NCBI RefSeq assembly: GCF_900104895.1
Contig: NZ_LT629742.1
Coordinates: 1,488,001 to 1,552,000, forward strand
Source of the DNA: Microterricola viridarii
GTDB lineage: Bacteria > Actinomycetota > Actinomycetes > Actinomycetales > Microbacteriaceae
Length of the DNA stretch: 64,000 bases
Direction of reading: 5' to 3'
The notes beneath the pieces were generated by a model. It was not told the DNA's origin, made no database searches, and was given only the letters and a program-made list of their open reading frames with translations. Below are positions 8,817 to 49,389 of the stretch, in pieces. Position 1 is the stretch's first letter, and each line of letters begins with the position of its first letter. Both the position numbers and the translations under genes were made by a program.

Positions 8817-8886
8817 GGGAGGCAAACGGCGGATCGGGAGGCCGAAGCCGGCCTGAAACTGCCTCCCGATCGTCCTTCGGCCTCCC
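8817..8886. repeat. 70-base double palindrome, copy A
   Basis: GGGAGGC at 8817-8823 and 8836-8842 is followed by GCCTCCC at 8861-8867 and 8880-8886, with spacers of 12, 18 and 12 bases. The inner arms extend to GATCGGGAGGC/GCCTCCCGATC. A 35-base hairpin at 8745-8779 precedes it. Confidence 0.92.
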
Positions 8887-9049
8887 AAACGGGCGCGGCC
8901 GGGCGCGGCCGGGACACAGCCACGGGCGCGGGCACGAGCGCACCCGGCGGGCGCGGATGCCGCGCGAACGCCTTTCCCGTTGGCTCGAGGGAGCGCCAGC
9001 GACCGAAGCCAACCCGCCCGTCACGAGGCGTCCGCCGCGGCATCCGTTT

Positions 9050-9119
9050 GGGAGGCAAACGGCGGATCGGGAGGCCGAAGCCGGCCTGAAGTTGCCTCCC
9101 GATCGTCCGTCGGCCTCCC
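9050..9119. repeat. 70-base double palindrome, copy B
   Basis: The heptamers lie at 9050-9056, 9069-9075, 9094-9100 and 9113-9119, in the same 12/18/12 geometry. The outer arms extend outward to GTTTGGGAGGC/GCCTCCCAAAC. A 35-base hairpin at 8979-9013 precedes it. Confidence 0.92.
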
Positions 9120-9317
9120 AAACCGGCGCGGCCGGGCGCGGCCACGGGCACGGTCGCGGGCACGGGCGCACCCGGCGGGCGCGGCCGGCGGGCGCATCCG
9201 GCGGGCGCACCCGGCGGGCGCGGCTGCCGCGCGAGAGCCTTCCCCGTTGGCTCGAGGGAGCGCCAGCGACCGAAGCCAACTCCGCCGGTCACGAGGTGTC
9301 CGCCGCGGCATCCGTTT

Positions 9318-9387
9318 GGGAGGCAAACGGCGGATCGGGAGGCCGAAGCCGGCCTGAAGCTGCCTCCCGATCGTCCGTCGGCCTCCC
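9318..9387. repeat. 70-base double palindrome, copy C
   Basis: The heptamers lie at 9318-9324, 9337-9343, 9362-9368 and 9381-9387. Its sequence is nearly that of copy B. A 35-base hairpin at 9246-9280 precedes it. Confidence 0.92.
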
Positions 9388-9482
9388 AAACGGGCGCGGT
9401 CGGGCACAGTCGCGGGCGCGGCCGGGCACAGCCACGAGCGCACCCGGCGGGCGCACCCCGGGGCGAGTGGATGCCGGGCGCC

Positions 9483-11042
9483 CTACCGGCGGCGGATGCC
9501 CTTGAGCACGGCGGCCATGACGAGCATCACGCCGCCGAGCTTGGCGAACTCCGCGCCGGTGCGCGGAAGCTGCACCAGGCCCGTCGCGTGCGAGATCGTG
9601 ACCGAGTCCACGAAGCGCAGCAGGCCCTCGCGGCCGTTGCGCCGGCCGACGCCGGACTGCTTGACGCCGCCCATCGGGGCATCGATCGAGCCGAAGCTGG
9701 CCCGGTAGCCCTCGTTCACGTTGACGCTGCCCGCATCGATTGCCCGGGCCAGCCGGAGCCCGCGTGCGGTCGAGCCGCTGAACACGGCGGCGTTCAGTCC
9801 GTAGTCGCTCGCATTGGCGGCGAGGATCGCCTCCTCCTCGCTGTCCACCACGGTGATCGAGACGACGGGGCCGAAGGTCTCCCCGGCGAAGCAGTCCATC
9901 TCGCTCGTCACACCGGTCAGCACGGTCGGCTCGAAGAACAGCGGGCCGAGATCCGGACGGGCCTGTCCGCCGGCGATGACCGTGGCACCCTTGGCCACGG
10001 CATCCGCCACATGCTCCTGCACCCGCGCCAGCTGGGCCGGCGTGGTCAGCGAGCCGACATCGCTGCCGAAGTCGTAGTTCGCGCCCGGCACGAGGGTGCC
10101 GACGCGGGCGGCCATGGCGGCGATGAAGGCCGGGGCCACGGCGCGCTCGACGTAGATTCGCTCGATCGAGACGCAGAGCTGGCCCATCGACGAGAAGCAG
10201 GCGTATGCGGCATCCGCGGCGGCCTTCTCCGGGTCGACGTCGTCCAGCACGATCAGCGGGTTCTTGCCGCCGAGCTCGAGCGAGGCGCCAACCAGGCGGC
10301 GGCCGGCCTTCTCTGCCACGCCGCGGCCGGTCGCGGTCGAGCCGGTGAAGCAGATGTAGTCGGCATGGTCGGTGACGGCCCCGCCGATCTCGGCGCCGGC
10401 GCCGGCGACGACGGCCCAGAGCGCGCGGGGGACACCGGCGTCGATGAAGGCCTGGCGGAGGGCGAGCACGCTGAGCGCGCCCTGGTCATCGGCCTTCTGC
10501 ACGACGCCGCAGCCAGCCGCGAGCGCGGGCACGACATCCATGGCGGCCAGGCTGAGCGGGTAGTTCCACGGCGTGATGACGCCGGCGATGCCCTTGGGCT
10601 TGTAGGCCACCCGGGTGGCGACGACGGTCGGGACGCCGCTGCGGCGGCGCCCGCCGCGCAGCACCGGCCGCGCGGCCAGCGCGTTGTAGCGGGTGACGCT
10701 GAGCACCTGGTAGAGCTCCTCGAAGGCCTGGCCGCGGGTCTTGCCGGTCTCGGACTGCAGCACGTCCAGCAGCATCTCGCGGCGCTCCAGGATGTTGTCG
10801 TGGGCCTGTAGCAGCACGGCGCGGCGGTGCGCGAAACCGGCTCTGGCCCAGGCGAGCTGCGCCAGCCGGGCGCGCGCGAAGGCGTCGGAGACATCGGCGG
10901 GGGTGCTGTGCGGCAGCTCGTGCAGCAGTTCGCCGGTGAACGGCGCCTGTACGGAGCGGGTCGTGCCGGAGGTGGCGACCAGGTCGCGGTCGAGTTCGGC
11001 GATGAACGTCGGGTGCAGCGGAGAGGCAGACATGAGCGCCAT
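9483..11042 (-). CDS. Aldehyde dehydrogenase (annotated-type: succinate-semialdehyde dehydrogenase)
   Basis: This 519-residue NAD(P)-dependent aldehyde dehydrogenase has GVITPWNYPLS for cofactor binding, FTGSTATGR, the catalytic-base segment LELGGKN, and the nucleophile cysteine in MGQLCVSIERIYV. Sequence style fits the GabD2/succinate-semialdehyde group. The C-terminus carries an extra hydrophobic stretch (LGGVMLVMAAVL) and ends KGIRRR, which suggests membrane association. It diverges from an MFS transporter plus a PLP lyase-like gene, with a doubled operator-like site in between, so joint control is likely. An alternative ATG at 11033 would remove three residues. Confidence 0.88.
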   Translation of the reverse strand: MALMSASPLHPTFIAELDRDLVATSGTTRSVQAPFTGELLHELPHSTPADVSDAFARARLAQLAWARAGFAHRRAVLLQAHDNILERREMLLDVLQSETGKTRGQAFEELYQVLSVTRYNALAARPVLRGGRRRSGVPTVVATRVAYKPKGIAGVITPWNYPLSLAAMDVVPALAAGCGVVQKADDQGALSVLALRQAFIDAGVPRALWAVVAGAGAEIGGAVTDHADYICFTGSTATGRGVAEKAGRRLVGASLELGGKNPLIVLDDVDPEKAAADAAYACFSSMGQLCVSIERIYVERAVAPAFIAAMAARVGTLVPGANYDFGSDVGSLTTPAQLARVQEHVADAVAKGATVIAGGQARPDLGPLFFEPTVLTGVTSEMDCFAGETFGPVVSITVVDSEEEAILAANASDYGLNAAVFSGSTARGLRLARAIDAGSVNVNEGYRASFGSIDAPMGGVKQSGVGRRNGREGLLRFVDSVTISHATGLVQLPRTGAEFAKLGGVMLVMAAVLKGIRRR

Positions 11043-11044
11043 TC

Positions 11045-11078
11045 TAGGTCAGCTGACACCGAATTAGGTCAGTTGACC
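11045..11078. promoter_or_regulatory. Two operator-like palindromes between divergent genes
   Basis: Site 1 contains GTCAGCTGAC, a perfect palindrome at 11048-11057. Site 2 contains GGTCAGTTGACC, a near-perfect one at 11067-11078. Both are preceded by TAG in TAGGTCAG. Their centres are exactly 20 bases apart, about two helical turns. They sit between the aldehyde dehydrogenase start and the transporter start. A dimeric repressor of TetR or GntR type is plausible. No regulator gene lies next to them in this window. Confidence 0.65.
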
Positions 11079-11111
11079 CAGTTCTCGTCGGCGGCTCGCT
11101 ACACTGCCGGA

Positions 11112-12482
11112 ATGACCGCAACGGAGCGTGCACTTCCTGTCAAGACGATCGTCGGCTATGCCCTGGGATCCCTGGGCACCGGCGGCTTCGCCACGCTGCC
11201 CGGGCTGGTGCTGGTGTTCTACCTGACCGACACCCTCGGGGTGACCGCGCTGCTGGCCGGGGTGCTCGTGACGGCGGCCAAGATCTGGGACGTGCTGATC
11301 GACCCGGTGATCGGTGCCCGGAGCGACCGGGCGCTGGCCCGCCACGGCTCCCGGCGCGGTTTCATGCGGGCGGGCGCCCTGCTGCTGCCCGTGTTCTTCG
11401 TGCTCACGTTCGCCGTGCCGGCCGGGCTGGAGCCCGCGGCATCCGGCCTCTGGGTACTCGTCGCGTTCATGCTCACGGCCACGGCGTTCAGCCTCTTCCA
11501 GGTGCCGTACATCGCGCTGCCGGCCGAGCTCGCCGACGGCTACGACCAGCGCACCCGGCTGCTCACCTGGCGGGTCGTGGTTCTGACCGCCGCGATCCTG
11601 CTGTTCGGCGCCGGCGGCCCGATGCTGCGCCGTCTGGGCGGCGAGAACGAGTACCTCGGCTACCTGATCATGGCCGTCGTCGCCGGCGTGGTGATCGGGG
11701 GCGGGATGCTGCTGGCCTCCCGCGTCGCGCCGCGGGGCGTCGGGGCGCACGCGGCCGCTTCAGGCGGGCACCCCGGCGGCGGCATCCGCGAGCACTACAA
11801 GGCCGGACTGGCTGTGCTGCGTCGCTCGCAGTCGTTCCGCGCCCTGCTGCTCACGTTCATGCTGCAGGGTCTCGCGACCGGCGTCATGCTGGCCGGCGCC
11901 AATTACGTCGCCGTCTGGGTGCTGCACTCGGAGGCCGCACTCGAACTGTTGTTCGTGGCGCTGATCGCCCCTGCGCTGTTCTGCGCACCGCTCTGGGGTG
12001 TGATCGCCCGGCGCGTGGGCAAGGAACGCGGCTTCGTGCTGGCCAGCGTGCTGTTCGGCGTCGCCGCGCTCTCGCTCACCGCGATGCTGTGGGCACCGGG
12101 GGCATGGGTGTACCTGCCCGTCGCCCTCGCCGGCGCCGGCTACGCGGGCATGCAGTCGCTGCCGATGGCGATGCTGCCCGACGTCATCTCGCACGACGCC
12201 GCCGAGCACGGCGACGGCCAGGCCGGCACCTTCAGCGGCGTCTGGACGGCGGGGGAGACCACCGGCATGGCCCTCGGCGCCACCGCGCTGACCCTGATGC
12301 TCGCCGCCACCGGCTACATCGAGAGCGTCGGCGCGACGGCCGTCGAGCAGAGCGACGCCGCGGTGATGGGTATCGTTCTGAGCTTCAGCGCCCTGCCAGC
12401 CGCCCTCATCGCGGTCAGCCTGCTGAGCCTGCGGCGCTACACCCTCCGCAAATCCGACATCGACAGGAAGGTGCTCGTGTGA
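11112..12482 (+). CDS. MFS transporter, MelB/GPH-like
   Basis: This 456-residue protein has about twelve hydrophobic segments and GPH (melibiose-carrier-like) features. KIWDVLIDPVIGARSD in the first cytoplasmic loop is typical of that group, and QVPYIALPAEL occurs in the fourth/fifth helix region. Substrates of this family range from sugars to lysophospholipids, and the sequence alone does not decide. The start is the ATG at 11112. The last codons overlap the GTG of the following PLP enzyme (GTGTGA), so the two are translationally coupled. The operator-like pair upstream suggests substrate induction. Confidence 0.87.
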   Translation: MTATERALPVKTIVGYALGSLGTGGFATLPGLVLVFYLTDTLGVTALLAGVLVTAAKIWDVLIDPVIGARSDRALARHGSRRGFMRAGALLLPVFFVLTFAVPAGLEPAASGLWVLVAFMLTATAFSLFQVPYIALPAELADGYDQRTRLLTWRVVVLTAAILLFGAGGPMLRRLGGENEYLGYLIMAVVAGVVIGGGMLLASRVAPRGVGAHAAASGGHPGGGIREHYKAGLAVLRRSQSFRALLLTFMLQGLATGVMLAGANYVAVWVLHSEAALELLFVALIAPALFCAPLWGVIARRVGKERGFVLASVLFGVAALSLTAMLWAPGAWVYLPVALAGAGYAGMQSLPMAMLPDVISHDAAEHGDGQAGTFSGVWTAGETTGMALGATALTLMLAATGYIESVGATAVEQSDAAVMGIVLSFSALPAALIAVSLLSLRRYTLRKSDIDRKVLV

Positions 12483-14017
12483 GCGCACACTTCGAGCAGA
12501 ACCCGGCAGATGTGCTGGCCCGGCTGGGCGCGCTGCGGGAGGGCGACGCGCCCACCCACGGCGGCCGCGTGCTCTCTTACGTCTACGACTCCGGCGTCGC
12601 CGAGCTCGACGAGCTGGCCGCGAGCGCGATCCGCGCCGTGCAGCCGGTAAACGCGCTGGACCCGACCACCTTCACCTCCGTCGCCGCGATGGAGCGTGAG
12701 GTCATCGGCTTCGCCCGCGCGGTCTTCCACGGCGACGAGCAGGTCGTCGGCACCGTCACGAGCGGCGGCACCGAGAGCTGCCTGCTCGCGATCAAGACGG
12801 CGCGGGAGCTGTGGCGGGCGGATGCCGCGCGCCGCGGCATACCGGCAGACACCGTGGTGCCCCGCATCCTGGCCCCCAGCACCGTGCATGCCGCGTTCCA
12901 CAAGGCGGCCGACTACTTCGGGCTGCGCCTCGAGCTGGTTCCGGTGGACCCGGATTCCGGCCTGCCCGTGGCCGCGGACTTCGCCGCGCGCCTGGCGGAT
13001 GCCGACGACGTGGCGCTCGTCGTGCTGAGCGCCCCCGCCTACCCGCACGGCGTGCTCGACCCGATCGCGGAGGTGTCGGCGCTGGCCGCGGCGGCCGGCG
13101 TCAGCTGCCACGTGGACGCCTGCTTCGGCGGTTTCGTGCTGCCGTGGTGGCCGGGCCTCGACGCAGCCAGCTGGGACCTGCAGCTGCCCGGCGTCACGAG
13201 CCTCTCCGCCGACCTGCACAAGTACGGCTACGCGCCGAAGGGGGCCTCCGTGCTGTTGCAGCGCGGCCGGGACCGGCAGCGGCAGCAGTACTTCGCGACG
13301 ACCGGCTGGCCCGGCTACCCGGTCGTCAACTCCACCCTGCTCGGTTCCAAGTCGGCGGCGGCCCTCGCCGCGGCGTGGGCGATCACGCAGACCCTCGGCG
13401 GGAGCGGCTTCGCCCGGCTGACGGAGAGCTGCGCGCGGGCCACTGCGGCGCTCGCAGATGCCATCGCGGGGATCGACGGCCTCCGCGTCGTCGGGCACCC
13501 GACCGGCCCAGCCATCGCCGTCGCGGCGGACGAGTCTGTGCCGGCCGAACGCCGCGTCGACCCGCACCACTGGGCGGACCAAGCGCGCGCCCACGGCTGG
13601 CAGCTGCAGCTGCAGCCGGGCTTCACGCAGTCCGACGGCACACGGCTGCCCGCGACGGCGCACCTGACCGTCACCCCGGTGACCGAGTCCCGGCTGGCCG
13701 AACTGACGACCGCCCTCGTGGCGGCCGCGGACGAGGTGCGCGGCGTGCCCGCCGTCGACGTCACGCCGCTTCTGGCCTCGCTCGGCGGGGCGTTCGGCGG
13801 GGCGCTGCCCGCCGCGCTGGACGCGGCGTCGGCGTTCGCCGTGTTGCAGGCGATCGGGCTGGCCCCGGATGCCGAGGGCAGTCCCGGTGAAGGGCCGGCC
13901 GACGCGGCGCTGCCCGAGCGGCTCGCGCCGTTCCTCGCCCTGGTCGAGGCGCTGCCGCCGGCCGTGGCCGAACCGCTGCTCACCGAGCTGATCGCGCGGC
14001 TGGTCGAGCCGGCCTAG
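12479..14017 (+). CDS. PLP-dependent sphingosine-1-phosphate-lyase-like / group II decarboxylase family enzyme
   Basis: This is a 512-residue fold-type I PLP enzyme. SGGTES at 95-100 binds the phosphate, HVDACFGGF includes the ring-contacting D213, and SADLHKYGYAPKG holds the Schiff-base lysine K248. The last two blocks closely resemble eukaryotic sphingosine-1-phosphate lyase, and TTGWPGY further on matches that branch too. Databases often label such proteins aspartate aminotransferase family. It starts at a GTG overlapping the transporter stop. No N-terminal membrane anchor is present. The real substrate is unknown; an aldehyde-yielding lyase or decarboxylase reaction would suit the divergent aldehyde dehydrogenase. 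Confidence 0.82.
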   Translation: MSAHFEQNPADVLARLGALREGDAPTHGGRVLSYVYDSGVAELDELAASAIRAVQPVNALDPTTFTSVAAMEREVIGFARAVFHGDEQVVGTVTSGGTESCLLAIKTARELWRADAARRGIPADTVVPRILAPSTVHAAFHKAADYFGLRLELVPVDPDSGLPVAADFAARLADADDVALVVLSAPAYPHGVLDPIAEVSALAAAAGVSCHVDACFGGFVLPWWPGLDAASWDLQLPGVTSLSADLHKYGYAPKGASVLLQRGRDRQRQQYFATTGWPGYPVVNSTLLGSKSAAALAAAWAITQTLGGSGFARLTESCARATAALADAIAGIDGLRVVGHPTGPAIAVAADESVPAERRVDPHHWADQARAHGWQLQLQPGFTQSDGTRLPATAHLTVTPVTESRLAELTTALVAAADEVRGVPAVDVTPLLASLGGAFGGALPAALDAASAFAVLQAIGLAPDAEGSPGEGPADAALPERLAPFLALVEALPPAVAEPLLTELIARLVEPA

Positions 14018-14124
14018 CGGGCATCGCCCGTGCCGGGCGCGTGCGCACTCGCTGCGCGCGCCCGGTAGACGGCAGCTGCACCGTGGCTCTAGCGCTGGCG
14101 AGCGCGCGCTGCCATGATCGCTCC

Positions 14125-15069
14125 ATGGCCACTCTCGTCAATGTAGACAATTTCGCCCTCGCCGAGACTCACCGCATGATGCGGGACCTCCAAGCCAATG
14201 CCGGAGGCGTCAACCGCTTCCAGCACAATCGCGAGCCAGCCGCGATCGACAACCAGACCGTGATCCGACTGAACCGCGACACGCTGTACAGCTTCGCGGT
14301 CGTCGACGTCAGCGCCGGCGCCACCCTGAGCATCCCGGAGCACGGCGAGCGGTACCTCTCCGCCATGGTCGTCAACGAGCACCACTACGTCGACGCGATC
14401 TTCCACGACGCCGGTCGCTACGAGCTGACCCAGGAGCAGTTCGGCACGCCGCACGTCGTGGTGGCGGTGCGCATCCTGGTCGACCCCGCCGACCCGGCGG
14501 ATGCCGCGGCGGTCGCGGTACTGCAGGACCAGCTCGAGTTGACTGCCGCCGCGGCGGCGCCCTTCGAGATGCCCGACTACGACACAACCAGCTTCGACGA
14601 GACGCGCACCGCGCTGCTCTCGCTGGCGCGCAACCTGACCGACTTCGAGCGCATGTTCGGCACGAAGGAGGAGGTCGACCCCGTCCGCCACCTGATCGGA
14701 ACCGCGGCCGGCTGGGGCGGGCTTCCCTCCGCCGAGGCGAGCTACATCGGCGTCGAGCCGCGCCTGCCGGTGGGCGAGTACGAGCTGACGGTCGGCCCGG
14801 TGCCCGTCGACGGCTTCTGGTCCATCTCCGTCTACAACGCCGGCGGCTACTTCGAGCCGAACGAGCAGGGCGCGTACACGATCAACAACATCACCGGCGT
14901 GCCGAACGACGACGGCACCATCACCGTCCGCTTCGGCGACACCTCTCCCGGAGCGGTGAACGCGCTGCCGCTCACGGACGGCTGGAACTACCTGGTGCGG
15001 ATGTACCGGCCGCGCGCGGAGATCCTCAACGGCGAGTGGACCTTCCCGACGCTCAGCAGCCAGCACTGA
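14125..15069 (+). CDS. DUF1254/DUF1214 domain protein
   Basis: This 314-residue protein has the DUF1254 pattern in its N-terminal half (QTVIRLNRDTLYSFAVVDVSAG, then ERYLSAMVVNEHHY). Its C-terminal half has DUF1214 features (YELTVGPVPVDGFWSISVYNAGGYF and NYLVRMYRPR). The function of these paired domains is not established. No signal peptide is seen, unlike many relatives that are exported. The ATG at 14125 begins the conserved part. It follows the PLP enzyme by about 100 bases and may or may not be cotranscribed. Confidence 0.8.
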   Translation: MATLVNVDNFALAETHRMMRDLQANAGGVNRFQHNREPAAIDNQTVIRLNRDTLYSFAVVDVSAGATLSIPEHGERYLSAMVVNEHHYVDAIFHDAGRYELTQEQFGTPHVVVAVRILVDPADPADAAAVAVLQDQLELTAAAAAPFEMPDYDTTSFDETRTALLSLARNLTDFERMFGTKEEVDPVRHLIGTAAGWGGLPSAEASYIGVEPRLPVGEYELTVGPVPVDGFWSISVYNAGGYFEPNEQGAYTINNITGVPNDDGTITVRFGDTSPGAVNALPLTDGWNYLVRMYRPRAEILNGEWTFPTLSSQH

Positions 15070-15075
15070 CCATCA

Positions 15076-15123
15076 GGACCGGGGCGCCGGGGCGCCCTCT
15101 GCGGCCCAACGGCGCCCCGGTCC
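15076..15123. terminator. Bidirectional terminator-like hairpin between convergent genes
   Basis: A 13-base perfect inverted repeat pairs GGACCGGGGCGCC (15076-15088) with its complement at 15111-15123. It lies between the ends of the DUF1254 gene and mrp. It has no T-run, which is common in high-GC genomes. Confidence 0.6.
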
Positions 15124-15150
15124 CGGAAGCGCGAGCAACGAGGCCGCGGG

Positions 15151-16302: not shown

Positions 16303-16840
16303 CCGCCGCCCCGTTCTCATACTCGGCCTTCGCCGCCGCTGACTCGCGCTCGTCCAGCTGCTCGAGCAGGCTGCGCAGCTCGGAGCGGATGAAGTCCTTC
16401 GAGGCCATGTCCGAGATGGACAGACGCAGGGCGACGACCTCCCTGGCGAGGTACTCGGTGTCGGCGAGGTTGCGCTCCGCCCGCTGGCGGTCCTGCTCGA
16501 TCTGCACCCGGTCGCGGTCGTCCTGGCGGTTCTGCGCGAGCAGGATCATCGGGGCGGCGTAGGAGGCCTGCAGCGAGAGGATCAGGGTCAGCGCCGTGAA
16601 GCCGATCGCCGCGGAGTCGAAACGCCACTCCTCCGGTCCCCAGGTGTTGAATGCGAGCCAGAACAGGCAGAACAGCGAGAGCCCGACGAGGAAGCCGGGC
16701 GTGCCCATGCCACGGGCGATCGCCTCGGTGAACCGGCCGAAGCGGTCACGGCTGGCGGCCTTGTCGCGCGCCGAGATGGCGGGCCCGCGCAGCCCGCGCG
16801 GGGAGTCCAGGCGGATGTCGCTCTTGTTAGCTCGTGCCAT
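16286..16840 (-). CDS. DUF1003 membrane protein
   Basis: This 184-residue protein has two central hydrophobic helices (LVGLSLFCLFWLAFNTW and IGFTALTLILSLQASYAAPMI). A charged helical C-terminus follows (AQNRQDDRDRVQIEQDRQRAERN), which is the DUF1003 pattern. The start at 16840 has GGAGGACC upstream. A longer start at 16867 would overlap the preceding gene more. It overlaps both neighbours by 14 to 17 bases, so the three genes form a tight operon. A role with the soluble MgtE-like neighbour in divalent-cation handling is inferred from context only. Confidence 0.88.
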   Translation of the reverse strand: MARANKSDIRLDSPRGLRGPAISARDKAASRDRFGRFTEAIARGMGTPGFLVGLSLFCLFWLAFNTWGPEEWRFDSAAIGFTALTLILSLQASYAAPMILLAQNRQDDRDRVQIEQDRQRAERNLADTEYLAREVVALRLSISDMASKDFIRSELRSLLEQLDERESAAAKAEYENGAADVGKP

Positions 16841-18179: not shown

Positions 18180-18234
18180 CCTTCAAATCTAGGCCACTCA
18201 CACCGTTTTCAGGCCCACATGGGAGAATGGCCGC

Positions 18235-18780: not shown

Positions 18781-18801
18781 CAACGGCCGGGCGCTCCCCG
18801 C

Positions 18802-19413: not shown

Positions 19414-19471
19414 GGCGACACCCTAGTGCGTGGCCGGTCGGATGCGTGGGACTTGGGTCTCGACAGGACGC

Positions 19472-23229: not shown

Positions 23230-23299
23230 GGGAGGCAGGCGGACGATCGGGAGGCCGTTCGGGTCGAAAAGTGGCCTCCCGATCCGCCGGATGCCTCCC
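23230..23299. repeat. 70-base double palindrome, copy D
   Basis: GGGAGGC at 23230-23236 and 23249-23255 is followed by GCCTCCC at 23274-23280 and 23293-23299. The 12/18/12 spacing matches copies A-C while most spacer bases differ. Its right spacer (GATCCGCC...) matches the complement of the left spacer of A-C, so this copy is in inverted orientation. It lies between the 3' ends of the PHP and DEAD-box genes. Confidence 0.92.
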
Positions 23300-28311: not shown

Positions 28312-28350
28312 CCCCGCGGCATCCGCCTGCCTCGCGCCGCCCGCGCAATG

Positions 28351-28404
28351 GACTCGCCAGAAAACGTGCCACGGCCCGAGTTTTGGGACGATTCTTGGCG
28401 AGTC
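28351..28404. repeat. 54-base palindromic element, copy 1
   Basis: Outer arms GACTCGCCA and TGGCGAGTC frame an internal segment with a looser AAAAC/GTTTT pairing. It is identical to copy 2 at 29466-29519 except for one base. It lies between the fadD stop and the DUF559 gene stop. Confidence 0.92.
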
Positions 28405-28441
28405 GATCGTGTGGCAGGGGCGTGGATGCCGCGGGCGGCCT

Positions 28442-29377
28442 TCACAGGTGCCAGCCCGCCTCGCTCAAGGCGGTGTGCACCCGCGCGACCGTGAGGTCTG
28501 GGCGCACGAACAGCCCGTGCTTGCGCACAGTGACCACTGTCCAGCCCGCACGGCGGATGCCTTCGAGCCTGCTCAGGTCGCGCTCGTATTGAGTGGTGCT
28601 CGTGCGGTGTTGGTCGCCGTCGTACTCCACGACCAGCCGCCACTCCGGGTAGACCATGTCGACGCGACCGAGGAAGCGCCCCGCAGGGTCTCTCAGCACC
28701 TGGTTGAGCAGCGGCTCGGGCAGCCCGGCATCCACGAGGAGCAAGCGCAACAATGTCTCCGGCCGTGACTCGGCACCAGCGCGCACGCGGGCGAGCGCGC
28801 GCAGGGCCACGCGTTTCCCCCGTCCGCCGTAGCCGGCCAGCCGCTCGGCGAGCTCGTCGACGGACGTGAACGGGCGCGGGTCGACAGGGTCGAGCAGCGC
28901 TGGGTTGAGCACGAGGTGATCGCCGACCACCACGAGCTCGTTGGCGGGGAGGAGCCCGGCCAGTTGAACCCAGCTCGAGGCTGCGCTGCTGACCGGAAGC
29001 CCGTGGCGCAGAACGAGCGGCGCCGACCCCGGCGGGAGTTCATGCCCGATCACCCCGCGGGTGCGCGGCGGGCGGTGCGGCGCGAAGCTGGCGACGTGGA
29101 GCTTCTCCTCGGGGCCGAAGGCCGCGGGAAGGGGCGCACCCCATATCCGGGCGGCGGTCAGGTGGCTGAAGAACTGCCCCGGTCGCATCCGCGTGGCGTA
29201 GGCGCGGCAACGATCGAGCAGAGCGCCGCCGTCCGGGGCGGCGACGCGCACTCCGTGGAAGGGACTGGTCAAGTCGCCGCCGCGCAGCCGCTCCGGGCTC
29301 AGACCCGCGTCGCGTGCCTCATCGACGGTGAACGCGCGCCCGGTGAAGCCGGGTGGCAGCGGAACGCGACGGGGCAT
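28442..29377 (-). CDS. DUF559 (VSR-like) nuclease-fold protein with an AbiEi-like N-terminal region
   Basis: This 311-residue protein has two parts. The N-terminal region (FTVDEARDAGLSPERLRGGDL, then FSHLTAARIWGAPLP) resembles the AbiEi-type antitoxin winged-helix proteins. The C-terminal region holds GRVDMVYPEWRLVVEYDGDQH, a DUF559/VSR-type endonuclease core with acidic residues and Gln/His. Such proteins are very common and variable in actinobacteria, and their role is unresolved. No partner AbiEii-type toxin gene lies next to it. Copies of a 54-base palindrome flank it on both sides, which hints that the segment was mobile or is recombination-prone. Confidence 0.8.
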   Translation of the reverse strand: MPRRVPLPPGFTGRAFTVDEARDAGLSPERLRGGDLTSPFHGVRVAAPDGGALLDRCRAYATRMRPGQFFSHLTAARIWGAPLPAAFGPEEKLHVASFAPHRPPRTRGVIGHELPPGSAPLVLRHGLPVSSAASSWVQLAGLLPANELVVVGDHLVLNPALLDPVDPRPFTSVDELAERLAGYGGRGKRVALRALARVRAGAESRPETLLRLLLVDAGLPEPLLNQVLRDPAGRFLGRVDMVYPEWRLVVEYDGDQHRTSTTQYERDLSRLEGIRRAGWTVVTVRKHGLFVRPDLTVARVHTALSEAGWHL

Positions 29378-29465
29378 GCCTCATCATGCCGCGAAGCGCC
29401 CACTCCTTGCAGAAGTTATCCACAGCCCGGTGCCAGGCTGGAGCCTGCCCGGCATCCGCGCAATC

Positions 29466-29519
29466 GACTCGCCAGAAAACGTGCCAAGGCCCGAGTTTTG
29501 GGACGATTCTTGGCGAGTC
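29466..29519. repeat. 54-base palindromic element, copy 2
   Basis: This is the same element as at 28351-28404 with one substitution (A for C) in the centre. Flanking bases extend the arms here to ATCGACTCGCCA/TGGCGAGTCGAT (29463-29522). It lies upstream of the DUF559 gene and downstream of the VOC gene. Confidence 0.92.
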
Positions 29520-29550
29520 GATGCGGATGCGGCGGGCACGGGCCGCGGGC

Positions 29551-30751: not shown

Positions 30752-30753
30752 GG

Positions 30754-39380: not shown

Positions 39381-39468
39381 GCCTCCAAGGTTAGGTCGAA
39401 AAGAGCCTCCTCGCCTACGCGCCACGCCCCTGACGGCGGCGCGGCGAGCCGTTCCGAAAGGGTCAACC

Positions 39469-42927: not shown

Positions 42928-43030
42928 CTGGCCAGCGAGCGTCGGAAGTTATCCACAGGCGCGACGCGAAGCGTCGCGACAGGCGGCAGCCCTCAATCAG
43001 GAAACCCCGAAAACCGCATGCGATGCTCGT

Positions 43031-43095
43031 GCGGTTTCGACAAGCTCAACCAACGGGCTCGACCAACGAGCTGAACCAACCGGCTGTGCCAGCGG
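43031..43095. repeat. TTTCGACAAGCTCAACCAAC-type dispersed repeat fragment
   Basis: GTTTCGACAAGCTCAACCAA is followed by related CTCGACCAACGAGCTGAACCAA words. This kind of sequence is a familiar intergenic repeat in Microbacteriaceae and related genomes. It lies between the ThiF-like start and the DUF2342 stop. Confidence 0.55.
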
Positions 43096-43127
43096 AGTGT
43101 GCCATCGCTTCAGCCCGGGGCTGAGGC

Positions 43128-44540
43128 CTAGGCGGGCGGGTCGTTCGGGTCGAGCGGGCGCTCGGGCCCGTCGCCGCGCAGCAGCGCCTCGAGTGCCTGG
43201 TCGATCTCGTCCAGCTCCGGCTCGACGCCGGAGGCCTTCGCCACCAGGCGTGCCACCAGGCTCGCCGGGTCGTCGAGGTCGGCGGAGGTCGGCAGGATGT
43301 CGGGGTGAGCCCAGAGCGCGTCACGGGCGTCGTTGCCGACGGCATCCGTCACGGCCTGCCACATGGCGGCCGCCTCGCGCTGGCGCCGGGGGCGCAGCTC
43401 GAGGCCGACGAGCGTGGCGAAGGCCGACTCGGCCGGCCCGCCCGCGGCACGGCGGCGGCGCACCATCTCGGCGATCGAGACGCTGCCGGGCAGGCGGCCG
43501 GTCGCCTCGGCGGTGACGACGTTGACCCAGCCCTCGATGAGGGCGAGCATCGTCTCCAGCTGGGCGAGCGCGGCCAGCTGGGCCTCGCTCTTCGGCGGGA
43601 TGAGCGAGCCGTCGACCATGGCCTGGCGCAGCTCCTCGGGGTTGGACGGGTCGAAGCCGGATGCCAGCTCCTCGAGCTTGCCGGCGTCCACGCTGATGCC
43701 CTGCGCGAACGACCGGATCGCGCTGATCAGGTGCAGGCGCAGCCAGCGGGCGTGCCGGAACAGGCGGGCGTGGGCGAGCTCGCGCACGGCGAGGTAGATC
43801 TGCACCTGGTCGGGGCCGACGTCCAGGCCCTCGGAGAAGGCCATCACGTTCTGCGGCAGCAGCGCGGCGTGCTGCTCGGCGAGCAGCGGGATGCCGATGT
43901 CCCCGCCCGAGATGACCTCAGTGGCGAGTTCGCCGACCACCTCACCCAGCTGCATGGCGAAGAGGGTGCCGCTCAGCGAGCGCATCATCGGCATGGCCTG
44001 GGCGAGCATGCCGCGCATCTCCTCCGGCAGTTGGTCGCCCAGCGCCCCGGTGAGGGTGTCGGCGATGCTGGTGGCGACGGGCTCGGCGAGCTGCGTCCAC
44101 AGCGGCATGGACTGCGCGACCCACTGCCTGCGGGTGATCAGCGACGGCACCACGGTGATCTCGCTGATGGCGATGACCTCGTCGAGCCAGAGCGCGGCGA
44201 TGTTGAACGCCTGGTCGAACTGGGCACGCTGCTCGGGCGTCACCTGCTCCTGCCCGGCCGCGGCCTTCTCCTCGGCCCGGCGCAGGGCGAGGTCCCAGTT
44301 GATGCCGTCGCCGGCGCTGCTCATGGCGCCGCGCAGCTGGTTCATCAGCGCGGCGATGCTCGCCGGGTCGTTCGGCAGGCCGGCCGCTCCCGCCAATTGG
44401 GCAGGATCGAAGGAGGCACCGCCGTCGGGGAAGTTGCCGGAGAGGATGTCTCGGAGCATCCTCTGCAGGTCATCGTCGGGGGTGTTGTCGTCGGGGCCCA
44501 GATTGTCACCGGGCTGGGCGTTGTCGGCCACTTCAGCCAC
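43128..44540 (-). CDS. DUF2342 family (putative zinc-dependent metalloprotease-like) protein
   Basis: This 470-residue protein matches the actinobacterial DUF2342/coenzyme F420-biosynthesis-associated family, equivalent to mycobacterial Rv3195 by position. A helix carries VRELAHARLF, a variant of HExxH with the first His replaced by Arg. Later comes ALIEGWVNVV, which resembles the third-ligand region. Classical zinc protease activity is therefore doubtful. N- and C-termini are acidic and disordered. It diverges from the Lon/PDZ gene, with both promoters in a 113-base gap. Confidence 0.85.
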   Translation of the reverse strand: MAEVADNAQPGDNLGPDDNTPDDDLQRMLRDILSGNFPDGGASFDPAQLAGAAGLPNDPASIAALMNQLRGAMSSAGDGINWDLALRRAEEKAAAGQEQVTPEQRAQFDQAFNIAALWLDEVIAISEITVVPSLITRRQWVAQSMPLWTQLAEPVATSIADTLTGALGDQLPEEMRGMLAQAMPMMRSLSGTLFAMQLGEVVGELATEVISGGDIGIPLLAEQHAALLPQNVMAFSEGLDVGPDQVQIYLAVRELAHARLFRHARWLRLHLISAIRSFAQGISVDAGKLEELASGFDPSNPEELRQAMVDGSLIPPKSEAQLAALAQLETMLALIEGWVNVVTAEATGRLPGSVSIAEMVRRRRAAGGPAESAFATLVGLELRPRRQREAAAMWQAVTDAVGNDARDALWAHPDILPTSADLDDPASLVARLVAKASGVEPELDEIDQALEALLRGDGPERPLDPNDPPA

Positions 44541-44653
44541 CTCTCAGTCGCGTGCTTCTACGCTAGTGCGAGATCCTGCGGCTTCGTTGGGAAATACCCT
44601 AGGCTGGGGTGCTCCGCTGTCCGCCTGTCGCGAACACCGGGGAGTGAGAAGGG

Positions 44654-45805
44654 ATGCCCGTGGCACTGTTCAGCGAAGGCCAACCGGGCACCGAGACCGG
44701 CGGCTCCCGCGCCGGGGCCGCCCGCAGCCGCGAAGAGCGCCGTGTGCGCCGCGGCTGGTACTTTCTCGCCATCGCGCTGGCCTGCGGCCTCGTTCTCGGC
44801 CTGGTTCCCTCTCCCTATGTGATCGAGAAGCCGGGCCCGGTCTTCGACACGCTCGGCACCGCCGAGCATGACGGCACAGAGCGCCCGCTCATCAACATCC
44901 CGGACGAGCCCATCTTCCCCACCGACGGCGAGCTGAACCTGCTCACCGTCTCCGTGGTCGGCAACAGGGAGACGCGGCCCAACTGGTTCGAGGTGCTGGG
45001 CGCCTGGGCCAGCCCCGAGCAGGCGGTGCTGCCGCTGGACGCCGTCTTCCCGCCGAACGTGTCCACCGCCGACCGCGAGCAGGCGAACCAGGTAGCCATG
45101 GTCAACTCGCAGCAGGACGCCATCGCCGCGGCGCTGATCGAGCTCGACTACCCGGTGGAGCGCACGCTCGTCGTCAACTCGCTCTCGGCGAACTCGCCGG
45201 CCGAGGGCGTGCTGCAGGCCGACGACGAGATCGTCGCCGTCAACGGTGACCCAGCCGAGGACCTCGCCGATCTGCGGGCCACGGTGCAGCTGAACGGCGC
45301 GGAGAAGCCTGCATCCGTCACGATCGTGCGGGCGGGGCAGACCCTCGAGGTCGAGGTCACGCCGATCATGGTCGGCGACACCGCCGTGCTCGGCGTCAAC
45401 ATCGCCACCGACTACCAGTTCCCGATCGAGGTGCAGATCCAGCTCGACAACGTCGGCGGCCCGAGCGCCGGCATGATGTTCGCGCTCGGCATCATCGACA
45501 AGCTCACCCCGGGCCCGCTGACCGCCGGCAAGGACTGGGCGGGCACCGGCACCATCGACGCGGACGGCGTGGTCGGCCCCATCGGCGGCATCCGCCAGAA
45601 GATGTTCGGCGCCGTGGATGCCGGGGCGAAATGGTTCCTCGCACCGCAGACAAACTGCACCGAGGTGGTCGGGCATGTGCCGGACGGCCTCACCGTGTTC
45701 GCCGTGGACACCCTCGACCAGGCCCTGACCGCGATTGAGACTGTCAGCGACGGCGGGGACACCTCGCAGTTGCCCTCCTGCACACTCTCAGGTTCGGCTC
45801 CATAG
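44654..45805 (+). CDS. Membrane-anchored PDZ/Lon (S16-like) serine protease, YlbL family
   Basis: This 383-residue protein has one N-terminal membrane anchor (GWYFLAIALACGLVLGLVPS) and an extracytoplasmic PDZ domain (ANSPAEGVLQADDEIVAVNGDPA). A C-terminal Lon-type protease domain follows. The Ser-Lys dyad is visible as DNVGGPSAGMMFAL and IGGIRQKMFGA. Relatives such as B. subtilis YlbL take part in membrane protein quality control and damage-checkpoint recovery. It precedes the UPF0182 gene by 64 bases. The order matches mycobacterial Rv3194c-Rv3193c. Confidence 0.92.
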   Translation: MPVALFSEGQPGTETGGSRAGAARSREERRVRRGWYFLAIALACGLVLGLVPSPYVIEKPGPVFDTLGTAEHDGTERPLINIPDEPIFPTDGELNLLTVSVVGNRETRPNWFEVLGAWASPEQAVLPLDAVFPPNVSTADREQANQVAMVNSQQDAIAAALIELDYPVERTLVVNSLSANSPAEGVLQADDEIVAVNGDPAEDLADLRATVQLNGAEKPASVTIVRAGQTLEVEVTPIMVGDTAVLGVNIATDYQFPIEVQIQLDNVGGPSAGMMFALGIIDKLTPGPLTAGKDWAGTGTIDADGVVGPIGGIRQKMFGAVDAGAKWFLAPQTNCTEVVGHVPDGLTVFAVDTLDQALTAIETVSDGGDTSQLPSCTLSGSAP

Positions 45806-45869
45806 GATAGAACCAGCACCACCAGAGTCTTTGCACTTCGAGACCCCACACACCGAGCATTGAGGCCAC

Positions 45870-48809
45870 GTGACTTCCCCTGCAGCTGACGCACCCGCCC
45901 GCCCAAACCGAGCGCCGCTCGCCATCACAGTGGCCGTCGTGGCCGGACTTGTGATGGCGTTCTTCGCATTCGCCAGCCTCTACGCCGATGTGCTCTGGTT
46001 CGACCAGCTCGGCTTCCTGAACGTGTTGACCACGCAGTGGGTCGCCAGCACCGTGCTGTTCCTCATCGGCTTCGTCGCCATGGCGGTGCCGGTCTGGGTC
46101 GCGATCCAGATCGCCTACCGCTCGCGCCCGGTCTACGCCAAGCTCAACGCCCAGCTCGACCGCTACCAGCAGGTCATCGAGCCGCTGCGCCGCCTCGCGA
46201 TGTACGGCGTCCCCGCCCTGCTCGGCCTGTTCGCCGGTGTCTCGGCCGCCTCGCGCTGGGAGACCACCCTCATGTGGCTCAACCGCACCCCGAGTGGCAC
46301 CAAGGACCCGCAGTTCGGCCTTGACGTGTCGTTCTACCTCTTCGACCTGCCGTTCCTGCACTCGGTGCTCGGCTTCGCCTCCGCCGTGCTGCTGATCGCG
46401 CTCATCCTCTCCGCCGCCACCGCGTACCTCTACGGGGCGATCCGGGTGAGCGGTCGCGAGGTCATCATCTCCAAGGCCGCGCGCGTGCAGATCGCCGTGA
46501 TGGCCGCGCTCTACCTGCTGCTGCAGGCCGCCAGCCTCTGGCTCGACCAGTACACCACCCTCACCGACAGCAGCGCCTACGTCATGTCCGGCGCCGGCTA
46601 CACCGACGTCAACGCGACCATCCCGGGCCGTGCGATCCTCGCCGGTATCGCCGCCGTCGTCGCCATCCTCTTCCTCGTCACCGCGATCATGGGGCGCTGG
46701 CGCCTGCCGATCGTCGGAACCGTGCTGCTGATCATCTCCAGCCTGCTGATCGGCTCGCTCTACCCCTGGGTTGTGCAGCGCTTCCAGGTGGTCCCGAGCG
46801 CGAAGACGCTGGAGGCCCCGTATATTCAGCGCAACATCGACGAGACGCGGGCGGCCTTCGGCCTCTCCGGCGTCGAGGAGATCCCCTACAACGCGACCAC
46901 CGAGGCCGAGCCCGGCGCGCTGCGCGAGGATGCCGAGACCACCGCGAACATCCGCATCCTCGACCCCGCGATCGTCAGCGACTCGTTCGAGCAGCTCGAG
47001 CAGTTCCGCCAGTACTACCAGTTCCCCGACCACCTCGACGTGGACCGCTACAACATCGACGGCAAGTCCCAGGACACCGTGGTCGCCGTGCGCGACCTGC
47101 GCCTGAGCGGTCTGAGCGACGCCCCGGACTGGGTCAACCGCACCCTCGTCTACACCCACGGCTACGGCATGGTGGCCGCCTACGGCAACCAGCGCTCCGC
47201 CGACGGCCAGCCGGTCTTCCTCGAGTCCGGCATTCCCAGCACCGGCGCGCTCGGCGACTTCGAGCCGCGCGTGTACTTCGGTGAGGACTCGCCCGCCTAC
47301 TCCATCGTCGGCGCGCCCGAGGGTGCCAAGCCGGTCGAGCTGGACTACCCGGCCGGCGGCGACGGAACCGAGCAGACCTACACCAGCTTTGCCGGCGACG
47401 GCGGGCCCAAGCTCGACAACATCTTCAAGAAGCTGGTCTTCGCCCTGAAGTTCCAGAGCGAGCAGATCTTCCTCTCCGACTCCGTCACCGACTCGTCGCA
47501 GATCCTCTACGACCGCTCTCCGCTGGAGCGCGTGCAGAAGGTGGCGCCGTACCTCAAGCTCGACTCCGACCCGTACCCCTCGGTCATCGACGGCAAGATC
47601 GTCTGGATCGTCGACGGCTACACGACGAGCGCGGACTACCCGTACTCAACCAAGGTCGGCTGGAGCGGCGCCATCAACGACGCGCAGACCGCGGCGCAGA
47701 GCTTCGCGCTCGATGACGTCAACTACGTGCGCAACTCGGTCAAGGCCACGGTCGACGCCTACGACGGCACCGTCACGCTCTACGCGTGGGACGACCAGGA
47801 CCCGCTGCTGGCCACCTGGCAGAAGATCTTCCCGTCGACCGTGAAGCCGCTCAGCGACATCTCCGGCGAGCTGATGAGCCACGTGCGCTACCCGGCCGAC
47901 CTGTTCAAGGTGCAGCGCGCCATCATGGGCCAGTACCACGTGACGGATGCCGGCTCGTTCTACTCGAGCGACGATGCCTGGACCACCCCGAAGGAGCCCA
48001 CGCTCCCCGCGGACAACAAGACGCTCCAGCCGCCGTACTACCTGACCATGCAGATGCCCGGGCAGAACTCGCCCGCCTTCTCGCTGTACTCCACGTTCAT
48101 CCCCGACCAGAAGGGCGACAGCACGCGTGACGTGCTGACCGGCTACCTGGCCGTTGACGCGGATGCCGGCAACAAGGCCGGTGTGCGAGCCGACACCTAT
48201 GGAAAGCTCCGCCTGCTGACGCTGCCGAACGACCGGATCCCCGGCCCCGGCCAGGTGCAGAACTCGTTCGACTCCGACCCCGCCGTCTCGCAGGTGCTCA
48301 ACCTGCTCAAGCAGGGCCAGTCGAAGGTGCGCAACGGCAACCTGCTGACGCTGCCCGTCGGTGGCGGTCTGCTCTACGTGCAGCCCGTGTACGTGCAGTC
48401 GACCGGTGGCACCAGCTTCCCGCTCCTGCAGAAGGTGCTGGTCGGCTTCGGCAACCAGATCGCCTTCGAGAACACCCTCGACGAGGCGCTGAACGTGCTC
48501 TTCGGCGGCGACTCCGGCGCGACCGCCGGCGACACCGCGACGCCGGGCGGAGGGGTCACCGTGACCCCGACGCCGGAGCCGACGACGCCGCCCACCGACG
48601 GCTCGACCACGCCGCCGACGACCGAGCCGACGACGCCGCCGACCAGCGGCACCGCCGACGAGCAGGCCAAGGCGCTGCTCGAAGTCGCCAAGCAGGCCCT
48701 GCAGGACAAGCAGAAGGCCATGGCCGACGGTGACTGGGCCGCCTACGGCGCAGCCGACAAGAAGCTGGCCGACACGCTCTCCGCACTGATGCTGGTGCTC
48801 GGCGAGTAG
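45870..48809 (+). CDS. UPF0182 family large membrane protein
   Basis: This 979-residue protein has about seven membrane helices in the first 310 residues (for example LAITVAVVAGLVMAFFAFAS and STVLFLIGFVAMAVPVWVAI). A very large extracytoplasmic domain with many Tyr/Asp residues follows (YIQRNIDETRAAFGL, YGMVAAYGNQRS). Near 905-935 is a Thr/Pro linker (TPTPEPTTPPTDGSTTPP) before a short charged helical tail. The family is widespread in actinobacteria and cyanobacteria, and its function is not settled. GTG at 45870 starts the conserved region. A strong terminator follows the stop. Confidence 0.93.
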   Translation: MTSPAADAPARPNRAPLAITVAVVAGLVMAFFAFASLYADVLWFDQLGFLNVLTTQWVASTVLFLIGFVAMAVPVWVAIQIAYRSRPVYAKLNAQLDRYQQVIEPLRRLAMYGVPALLGLFAGVSAASRWETTLMWLNRTPSGTKDPQFGLDVSFYLFDLPFLHSVLGFASAVLLIALILSAATAYLYGAIRVSGREVIISKAARVQIAVMAALYLLLQAASLWLDQYTTLTDSSAYVMSGAGYTDVNATIPGRAILAGIAAVVAILFLVTAIMGRWRLPIVGTVLLIISSLLIGSLYPWVVQRFQVVPSAKTLEAPYIQRNIDETRAAFGLSGVEEIPYNATTEAEPGALREDAETTANIRILDPAIVSDSFEQLEQFRQYYQFPDHLDVDRYNIDGKSQDTVVAVRDLRLSGLSDAPDWVNRTLVYTHGYGMVAAYGNQRSADGQPVFLESGIPSTGALGDFEPRVYFGEDSPAYSIVGAPEGAKPVELDYPAGGDGTEQTYTSFAGDGGPKLDNIFKKLVFALKFQSEQIFLSDSVTDSSQILYDRSPLERVQKVAPYLKLDSDPYPSVIDGKIVWIVDGYTTSADYPYSTKVGWSGAINDAQTAAQSFALDDVNYVRNSVKATVDAYDGTVTLYAWDDQDPLLATWQKIFPSTVKPLSDISGELMSHVRYPADLFKVQRAIMGQYHVTDAGSFYSSDDAWTTPKEPTLPADNKTLQPPYYLTMQMPGQNSPAFSLYSTFIPDQKGDSTRDVLTGYLAVDADAGNKAGVRADTYGKLRLLTLPNDRIPGPGQVQNSFDSDPAVSQVLNLLKQGQSKVRNGNLLTLPVGGGLLYVQPVYVQSTGGTSFPLLQKVLVGFGNQIAFENTLDEALNVLFGGDSGATAGDTATPGGGVTVTPTPEPTTPPTDGSTTPPTTEPTTPPTSGTADEQAKALLEVAKQALQDKQKAMADGDWAAYGAADKKLADTLSALMLVLGE

Positions 48810-48824
48810 TACCCCGCACGACTG

Positions 48825-48869
48825 GCGCATCCCTCCCGGAGCTCACGCTCCTGGAGGGATGCGCTTTTT
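48825..48869 (+). terminator. Rho-independent terminator of the UPF0182 gene
   Basis: GCGCATCCCTCC (48825-48836) pairs perfectly with its complement at 48853-48864. An inner GGAG/CTCC stem extends it, and TTTTT follows at 48865-48869. Confidence 0.92.
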
Positions 48870-49036
48870 CGTGCCGTCGTGCCGCAGTACCACAGTGGGG
48901 GAGCGGCCGATCGTCCGCCTCCCACGTCGGCTGAGCAAGGAACGAGCGACTCTCCCCACGTCGGCTGAACGAGGAACGAGCGAAGCCCTGATAGCCCGCG
49001 GACGCCGCAGCCGGCGGCATCCGCGGAGAGCCACTC

Positions 49037-49106
49037 GGGAGGCAACAATGACTTAGGGAGGCCGTTTGTGCACCAGTTCGGCCTCCCGATCCGCCTTTCG
49101 CCTCCC
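49037..49106. repeat. 70-base double palindrome, copy E
   Basis: The heptamers lie at 49037-49043, 49056-49062, 49081-49087 and 49100-49106 with 12/18/12 spacing. The right spacer begins GATCCGCC as in copy D. Confidence 0.92.
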
Positions 49107-49319
49107 CGCATGCCCCCGCGGGGGAGCGGCCGCCGGCGCACCCCGCCCCGCGCTGGCTGCGCGGCCCTCCCCGCGTCGGCTGAACGACTTACCGACCGTC
49201 GGCTGAGCGACCCGCCCCACGTCGGCTGAGCGACCCGCCCCACGTCGGCTGAGCGAGGAACGAGCGAAGCCCTGACAGCCCGCGGACACCGCAGCCGTTG
49301 GCATCCGCGGAGAGCGCTC

Positions 49320-49389
49320 GGGAGGAAACAACGAGTTAGGGAGGCCGTTTGTGCACCAGTTCGGTCTCCCGATCCGCCTTTCGCCTCCC
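49320..49389. repeat. 70-base double palindrome, copy F (two decayed heptamers)
   Basis: The heptamer positions are 49320-49326 (GGGAGGA), 49339-49345 (GGGAGGC), 49364-49370 (GTCTCCC) and 49383-49389 (GCCTCCC). Spacing is still exactly 12/18/12 although two heptamers each carry one change. Confidence 0.9.

Follow-up and report, generated by a model that had tools for sequence, protein, structure and literature searches.

The window, a stretch of 64,000 nucleotides from the genome of Microterricola viridarii (G000, the source genome, genus Microterricola), carries six palindromic elements, A to F (Table 1). Each contains the box GGGAGGC and its complement GCCTCCC, both twice, in the spacing 7-12-7-18-7-12-7; a sequence-only reading of the window had described these copies, and their places and spacing were confirmed. 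Elements A–E match every box base and F matches 26 of the 28, its mismatches being GGGAGGa and GtCTCCC. Elements A–C lie near one another as local copies, at intervals of 233 and 268 nt. When 46 copies were oriented without supervision, which supplied the strands of the elements in Table 1, A–C and D–F came out with the opposite polarity noticed in the same reading. As single-stranded DNA, A–E fold more strongly than their shuffles (z −2.8 to −7.8) and F folds no better than its shuffles. An Rfam scan of the window found two tRNAs only and no known RNA family at the palindromes. The window also holds a second cassette (28341–29522), in which a DUF559 gene lies between two palindromes of another family. 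The version of this cassette in a related genome, G230, has decayed to one palindrome and gene pieces.

Table 1. Palindromic elements and associated features in the window (positions are those of the window).
Feature	Position	Strand	Remarks
Element A, N18 subtype	8817–8886	−	28/28 box bases; DNA fold z −3.2
Element B, N18 subtype	9050–9119	−	28/28 box bases; DNA fold z −6.3
Element C, N18 subtype	9318–9387	−	28/28 box bases; fold z −7.8
Element D, N18 subtype	23230–23299	+	between convergent genes; 28/28 box bases
Left palindrome of second cassette, other palindrome family	28341–28407	.	97% identical to 29456–29522; self-complementary
DUF559 gene, 311 aa, VEYDG motif form	28442–29377	−	PF04480 match G000:1516466-1516663; alignment
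Right palindrome of second cassette	29456–29522	.	97% identical to left copy; self-complementary
Intrinsic terminator between upstream gene and element E	48825–48869	+	read by eye
Element E, N18 subtype	49037–49106	+	past intrinsic terminator, upstream of two tRNA genes; 28/28
Element F, N18 subtype, degenerate	49320–49389	+	2 box mismatches; fold z −0.6

The six copies belong to a real family, as had been proposed: a pattern search of the whole genome (3,837,721 bases) found 23 places at ≤ 3 mismatches, each on both strands. The pattern read backwards gave 0 places in G000, and a chance origin was rejected on this basis. The single exact spacing that had been claimed describes the six window copies and does not extend to the whole family, in which the apical spacer is either 18 or 17 nt long (the N18 and N17 subtypes) and the arms are 7-12-7. 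A scan for GGGAGGC-N3..33-GCCTCCC, which tests the middle spacer alone, found 21 places in G000 (16 N18, 4 N17 and 1 N9, tallied by eye) against 3 for its reversed control. When arm and apical lengths were left free among the loci then in hand, 72 of 77 matches read 12-17/18-12; of the remainder, four are known elements read in a shifted register and one (L083) has a spacer read as 13. Because those loci came from queries with 12-nt spacers, the N3..33 scan is the less biased of the two. Within the limits of both searches, free spacing was rejected. Half elements on their own, with a pair of boxes at 19 nt and no inverted partner half, were rejected as well, since all 38 exact matches in G000 fall, by eye, on the coordinates of full elements. 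Some half-element matches in G230 and G129 are part of other tandem repeats.

Hairpin pairing is clear in the N17 subtype, which has compensatory base pairs and a stem that covaries at positions 17–19 and 31. It is weak in the window's N18 subtype, where pairing at spacer positions 8, 9 and 14 falls below chance (per-position P values, uncorrected for the number of positions). The subtype tabulation behind the pairing and N18 counts left out the copies from G025, a single copy whose locus bore no genome label, repeated identical sequences and any copy with 2 core mismatches. Across 19 orthologous pairs, in which L001 figures three times and L009 twice, we counted 11 changes in 532 box positions and 125 in 798 spacer positions, a difference that is partly built in because the copies were found by their boxes.

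Gene contexts were derived with our own codon-usage gene caller rather than a published annotation. The elements had been placed 3′ of genes, which is so for A–D; E and F lie between the intrinsic terminator of a gene and two tRNA genes. Their avoidance of divergent gaps extends to the family, with 2 of 45 copies in such gaps compared with 13 of 47 gene pairs in the window (p = 0.004), and one of the two is the bracket copy upstream of the N18 gene of G000. Convergent genes surround 22 of the 45 copies, and the nearest stop codon is a median of 44.5 nt away (44 of 46 copies scorable). Polarity has, by eye, no evident tie to gene direction, which led us to reject an RNA of fixed strand. Element D is missing at the orthologous site in all four relatives, and so is a further copy, L014. 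A comparison of these two sites by eye showed no clean target duplication: D has an 8-base direct repeat at its flanks, but the extra DNA there includes about 50 bases beyond the element, and no such repeat was seen at L014. Movement of an element was not observed.

What places the family is an association that the sequence-only reading missed, namely that a gene of the DUF559 (Vsr-like nuclease) family lies between copies of these elements. Both subtypes, N18 and N17, flank such a gene on both sides. Repeat pairs surround 22 of 30 DUF559 loci, a subset of 41 matches in six genomes, and both copies are palindromic in 15; three of the pairs are weak, at 64–66% identity (L134, L135 and L143), and the other 8 loci have no pair. 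For comparison, 46 of the 48 called window genes were scored; the sole match was the window's own DUF559 gene, leaving bracketing in 0 of 45 other genes (Fisher 1e-12 versus the DUF559 loci). Among class-wide DUF559 loci, best matches only and after two short loci of 29 were dropped, only 8 of 27 are bracketed, 2 of them strictly. In the fetched loci, each gene has flanks that match a particular class of solo copies: N18 solos for the N18 paralog, N17 solos for the N17 paralog, GGGAGGA solos for a third paralog in G129 and G025 solos for the G025 gene. Repeats flanking the enzyme gene and a separate repeat class for each paralog are both features of REPtrons (RAYT/TnpA-REP with REP/REPIN), and both were found here with DUF559 as the gene. 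Fetched loci contain 23 N18 copies in G000, 18 in G182 and 17 in G230, all of which have the N18 gene, as compared with 1 in G063 and 0 in G129, where only other DUF559 members were found. Whole-genome counts at ≤ 2 mismatches are 21, 17, 16, 1 and 0 in the same order; the link between copy number and gene is drawn from these five genomes.

All four proteins searched match PF04480 at 31.3–33.7 bits (cut-off 20.6). A match to PF18741 is under its cut-off, AbiEi_4 matches one of the four weakly and under its cut-off (E 0.019), and an NCBIfam search gave no match close to a cut-off. The best sequence match among solved structures is 3hrl, an 'Endonuclease-Like Protein' (E 0.044). The gene has a low dN/dS, 0.12–0.28. 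Proteins bracketed by these elements form a single clade with nine members (support 1.0), one of them a frame-shifted G063 copy without brackets; the accompanying search covered loci for 30 places, and the start codons used for L131, L133 and L135 are probably too far upstream. In the ExDG motif, all nine clade members have Q (LQ(I/L)DG) and the 22 other aligned DUF559 proteins have E. We take this acidic residue to be catalytic in DUF559 proteins, so the nuclease of the element clade may be altered or dead. Across the class, 50 of the 79 sampled genomes contain DUF559, and relatives are scarce among plasmids (2 in 72,556 records) and phages (1 in 50,697).

The association recurs in other Microbacteriaceae. 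Relatives are bracketed by palindromes of their own in 7 of the 10 other genera sampled; 16 of 24 loci are bracketed, 13 with both copies palindromic, and 8 have no pair. The box differs in these genera and the 19-nt spacing is the same: a box recurs at lag 19 in 39 of the 64 arms and at 14 of the 16 loci, counts that are not independent because loci of the same genus are related. The next-best lag scored 6, and single-base shuffles averaged 1.2 with a maximum of 5. Two bracketed loci, L210 and L212, have no lag-19 box. Other DUF559 clades show lag 19 in 5 of 60, inside the shuffled range.

The palindromes are a REP-like family, dispersed, non-autonomous and mostly extragenic. A REP- or MITE-like non-autonomous element was among the earlier proposals, and its character stands, as do the conserved boxes, hairpin pairing and mostly 3′ extragenic position. 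The RAYT partner did not turn up: none of the 6 genomes had a PF01797 match at E ≤ 0.001, with 5 of 14 control genomes positive. We favor, with a probability of roughly 0.6, a REPtron-like system in which a DUF559 protein replaces RAYT. The partner would have a DUF559 C-terminus (PD-(D/E)XK, Vsr-like), perhaps with an AbiEi-like N-terminus, and be encoded between two copies of its own element subtype. Every arm bears the recognition box twice, at a 19-nt interval, and the arms can pair as a hairpin of ~70 nt. In the proposed model the cognate protein recognises this doubled box, whether the element is folded or double-stranded, and nicks or processes the element, after which repair or copying may spread and maintain the solo copies. 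The association with the gene is demonstrated, as are the subtype-specific pairing and the differences in presence between species; that the protein binds, cuts and disperses the elements is inferred.

Known systems resemble this arrangement in part. In the accounts of REPtrons drawn on here, the repeats are likewise short extragenic palindromes, the enzyme gene likewise lies beside or is bracketed by its own repeats, and several paralogs likewise have one repeat class apiece; further likenesses are a single-copy enzyme that is not self-mobile and the coevolution of enzyme and repeat (PMC3116915, PMC8266576, PMC3733652). The REPtron enzyme, however, is an HUH Y1 transposase and the protein here is DUF559, and the present elements differ in their length of ~70 nt, their boxes doubled at 19-nt spacing, their low copy number and their occurrence in Actinomycetota. 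REPs usually exceed 100 per genome (PMC2817692), beside which ~23 copies is low. REPs tagged with CGTC are likewise dispersed palindromes without a dedicated RAYT; they have no known partner gene, whereas the present elements bracket a gene and lack the CGTC tag (PMC3733652). By eye, neither GTAG nor CGTC is present in the consensus of 38 copies with 10-nt flanks. VsrA of Caulobacter, a Vsr-like nuclease, likewise has a DUF559 domain of the PD-(D/E)XK superfamily but is described with a cytosine methyltransferase, and the main text of that paper uses 'palindrom' 0 times (PMC12907096). The literature searched, to which subscription papers and bioRxiv did not belong, yielded no link between DUF559 and palindromic repeats, which may be described elsewhere. 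The attC sites of integrons also lie 3′ of genes, form an imperfect palindrome with four short boxes and are read in the form of a folded strand. They differ from the present elements in box sequence, spacing and recombinase.

The solo copies could instead be regulatory or architectural sites, with the DUF559 protein autoregulating through its flanking palindromes and binding solos elsewhere, which would need no present mobility. Conserved, rigidly spaced boxes do resemble protein sites, the three poorly pairing N18 spacer positions and the change from E to Q point the same way, and AbiEi-type antitoxins bind inverted repeats near their own genes (PMC7319586). We nevertheless consider this unlikely, because copies stand at both ends of the gene and not at the promoter alone, divergent gaps are avoided, the N17 stem covaries and some copies occur in one species only.

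Alternatively, solos could be footprints of lost palindrome–gene–palindrome cassettes, comparable to solo LTRs, the gene having been deleted after a move. Paired direct copies could recombine, and the decayed second cassette in G230 has this appearance. When five DUF559 proteins served as tblastn queries (E ≤ 1e-3) against the fetched GGGAGG loci, mostly with 1–2 kb flanks, matches fell on bracketed loci only and no DUF559 remnant appeared at solo loci; solos are, moreover, far more numerous than cassettes, and we give this explanation little credence. Transcribed hairpins, acting as bidirectional terminators or as stabilisers of mRNA 3′ ends, seem to us very improbable too. The short distance to stop codons, the convergent neighbors and the strong folding of five of the six window copies would suit them, but by eye no T-run follows A–F, D adjoins another hairpin and polarity is not visibly tied to gene direction. 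E and F lie past a classic terminator, so that a transcript-end role fits poorly, and termination needs neither an exact 19-nt box spacing nor a cognate gene. That the elements are MITEs of an ordinary DDE transposon, bracketing DUF559 incidentally, is the least credible reading: it accords with terminal inverted arms, species-specific presence and intergenic location, but the bracketing is specific, subtype-matched and recurrent in other genera, and the two sites examined showed no clean target duplication.

The repeats and DUF559 together look like a second version of the REP/transposase partnership, unrelated to the first. More broadly, and tentatively, at somewhat less than even odds, the partner enzymes so far missing for palindromic repeats in actinobacteria may be DUF559 proteins. 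The pairing would be a new kind of genomic parasite or a domesticated partnership, in which one clade reads its box at an exact 19-nt interval per arm, with enzyme and box coevolving by genus and the ruler length fixed. If true, many an orphan DUF559 gene would belong to a REPtron-like system with an origin separate from that of HUH transposases. DUF559 is widespread and still of unknown function in Pfam, and the palindrome link provides a role for it that can be tested; immediate binding predictions follow from the 19-nt rule and the boxes specific to each genus. The link could account for intergenic palindromes where high-GC Gram-positive genomes have no RAYT, and could represent a second origin of the REP-type partnership, from a nuclease fold unrelated to HUH transposases.

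All six palindromes lie where the sequence-only reading had placed them and share the spacing 7-12-7-18-7-12-7; the boxes match at 28 of 28 bases in five of them and at 26 of 28 in F. We scanned the whole genome of M. viridarii (3.84 Mb, one contig) and found 23 copies with ≤3 mismatches, versus none for a reversed-pattern control, which places the pattern above chance. The spacing, taken to be fixed, holds for all six window copies and not for the family, in which a covariance model trained on 38 copies revealed a second subtype with an apical spacer of 17 (N17, as opposed to N18). An exact scan with 26 fixed bases across 84,980 species genomes, which may omit records of the window's own genome, matched only Microterricola pindariensis PON 10 (seven loci). 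At ≤2 mismatches the pattern occurs in five of 299 Microbacteriaceae genomes: M. viridarii (G000), G182 of the same genus, G230, G063, and G025, the one from another genus.

Positions of the palindromes and of associated genes in the window
Feature	Position	Remarks
Palindrome A	8817-8886
Palindrome B	9050-9119
Palindrome C	9318-9387
Palindrome D	23230-23299
Palindrome E	49037-49106
Palindrome F	49320-49389
DUF559 gene of the window's own cassette	28442-29377	between palindromes 28341-28407 and 29456-29522, 97% identical
Two tRNA genes	49533-49606 and 49716-49789	183 nt apart, equal Rfam scores, directly after E and F

We gathered 50 distinct copies, 46 of them from the genus. Conservation is highest in the boxes. 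Other conserved bases are a GATC that directly adjoins the inner box on its outside, the CG of positions 11-12 and the T of position -2. Pairing at spacer positions 8, 9 and 14 is rarer than expected, so the element consists of two unlike halves. The outer box of N17 ends in C, T or A. In this subtype (25 copies), pairing at positions 17, 18, 19 and 31 is far more frequent than after shuffling (0 of 2000 shuffles) and involves several Watson-Crick types, and positions 8-12 have no such excess; in N18 (51 copies) covariation is weak, at 17-19 and 32. Thus, either the inner hairpin is selected or palindromy is maintained by template switching, and the boxes are preserved as sequence.

Gene context was taken from our own simple codon-usage gene caller. 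Among 45 scorable copies, 22 lie in convergent, 21 in tandem and two in divergent gaps, compared with 12, 22 and 13 of 47 window gene pairs. The nearest stop codon is at a median distance of 44.5 nt (44 of 46 copies), and E and F lie past an intrinsic terminator, 5' of the two tRNA genes. The gaps of A-C and E-F also hold tandem short repeats (8612-8766 and 48916-49256), with 31-nt units containing CTCCCGTTGGCTCGAGGGAG and 23-nt units containing CACGTCGGCTGAGCGA.

Many copies are common to two to four species at orthologous sites, with boxes almost constant and spacers and flanks diverged. Changes in 19 orthologous pairs number 11 of 532 in boxes versus 125 of 798 in spacers, a contrast that is partly built in because boxes were used to find the copies. 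D and the copy at L014 are specific to G000, the element being absent from four relatives at both sites. No mobility was seen, and insertion junctions were not clean. At the site of D, a different stretch of ~2 kb, which includes an open frame, takes the element's place in G182 (C15:9397-11452). Locus L014 (1140-1460, near 852.4 kb of G000) also carries a high-copy repeat with GGTCTCGATACGG and CTACTCGACC or similar words, on which most of the listed L014-query matches land (totals: 60 in G182, 55 in G230).

The sequence-only reading had suggested looking for a RAYT-type transposase gene; the RAYT family PF01797 was not found in six genomes. Instead, when loci were grouped by homology, two paralogous sites emerged at which a pair of elements encloses a ~1 kb gene. 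The N18-bracketed paralog is present in G000, G182 and G230, and the N17-bracketed one in G000, G230 and G129, with the G182 copy divided between two contigs. The product is a DUF559 protein of the Vsr-like nuclease family (PF04480 above cut-off; REase_MTES_1575 under cut-off; AbiEi_4 weak, in one of four proteins). For the N18 gene we obtained dN/dS values of 0.154 and 0.283, and for the N17 gene a value of 0.12. A third paralog, flanked on both sides by GGGAGGA-type copies, is present in G129, and the best DUF559 gene of G025 is bracketed by that genome's own elements. When 31 DUF559 proteins were placed in a tree, all that are bracketed by GGAGG-type elements fell within a single clade of nine (support 1.0), whose sole unbracketed member, from G063, has a reading-frame change. 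This clade carries Q where the 22 other proteins carry E, so the DUF559 protein may instead be a binding-only regulator, the main rival explanation.

We assessed the specificity of the bracketing. A repeat pair, one copy per gene side, was detected at 22 of 30 DUF559 loci (three pairs weak), representing 30 of the 41 DUF559 matches in six genomes; both copies are palindromic at 15. Among controls, all from the single 64-kb window, one of 46 genes had a pair, and this was the DUF559 gene at 28442-29377. When sampling was extended to the whole class, 8 of 27 loci passed, two strictly. The flank similarity of bracketed genes tracks subtype. The link between the number of N18 copies and the presence of the N18 gene is based on five genomes. 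L122 (G182), L123 (G000) and L138 (G230) are DUF559 genes without a matching pair; L122 has unlike palindromes, one per side.

Of the 299 Microbacteriaceae genomes, 119 encode relatives of the N18 protein (E ≤1e-25). In ten other genera, bracketing applies to 16 of 24 loci, 13 of which have two palindromic copies, and their arms repeat a short box at exactly 19 nt, with varying sequence (CAGGA, GAAGG, GGGAACAC, CCGGA, CAGGCC and others). At lag 19, 39 of 64 arms and 14 of 16 loci show runs of ≥5 (shuffle mean 1.2; the next-best lag has such runs in 6 arms); L210 and L212 are bracketed yet lack the lag-19 box. Palindromes of other DUF559 clades do not follow the rule (5 of 60; shuffle mean 1.9, maximum 6). 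Bracketing and lag-19 box were found together in seven of the ten genera, and in the other three no repeat pair was seen. Separately, G230:C1:3462643-3462724 holds tandem 19-bp units (GGGAGGGAGCTCAACCAGC), a period equal to the box spacing.

The window's own DUF559 cassette (28341-29522) is of a second, different kind, with 67-bp palindromes resembling others at G000:3177814, at G182 C11:13970 and at four places in G230. Although decay of this cassette type at the syntenic place in G230 has left one palindrome with fragments of the gene, solo copies of our elements do not look like ruins of cassettes, since no gene remnant was found at the fetched solo loci.

The association resembles RAYT/REP systems as described in three accounts (PMC3116915, PMC3733652, PMC8266576): an enzyme-like gene under purifying selection is held by two repeats, several paralogs each have their own repeat class, and solo repeats lie mostly 3' of genes. 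The enzyme family differs, being DUF559 here. This likeness, with a different enzyme, leads us to propose a REPtron-like system, that is, one comparable to a RAYT transposase gene with its REP repeats, in which the DUF559 protein would recognize two boxes 19 apart and, we infer, would bind, process and disperse the elements.
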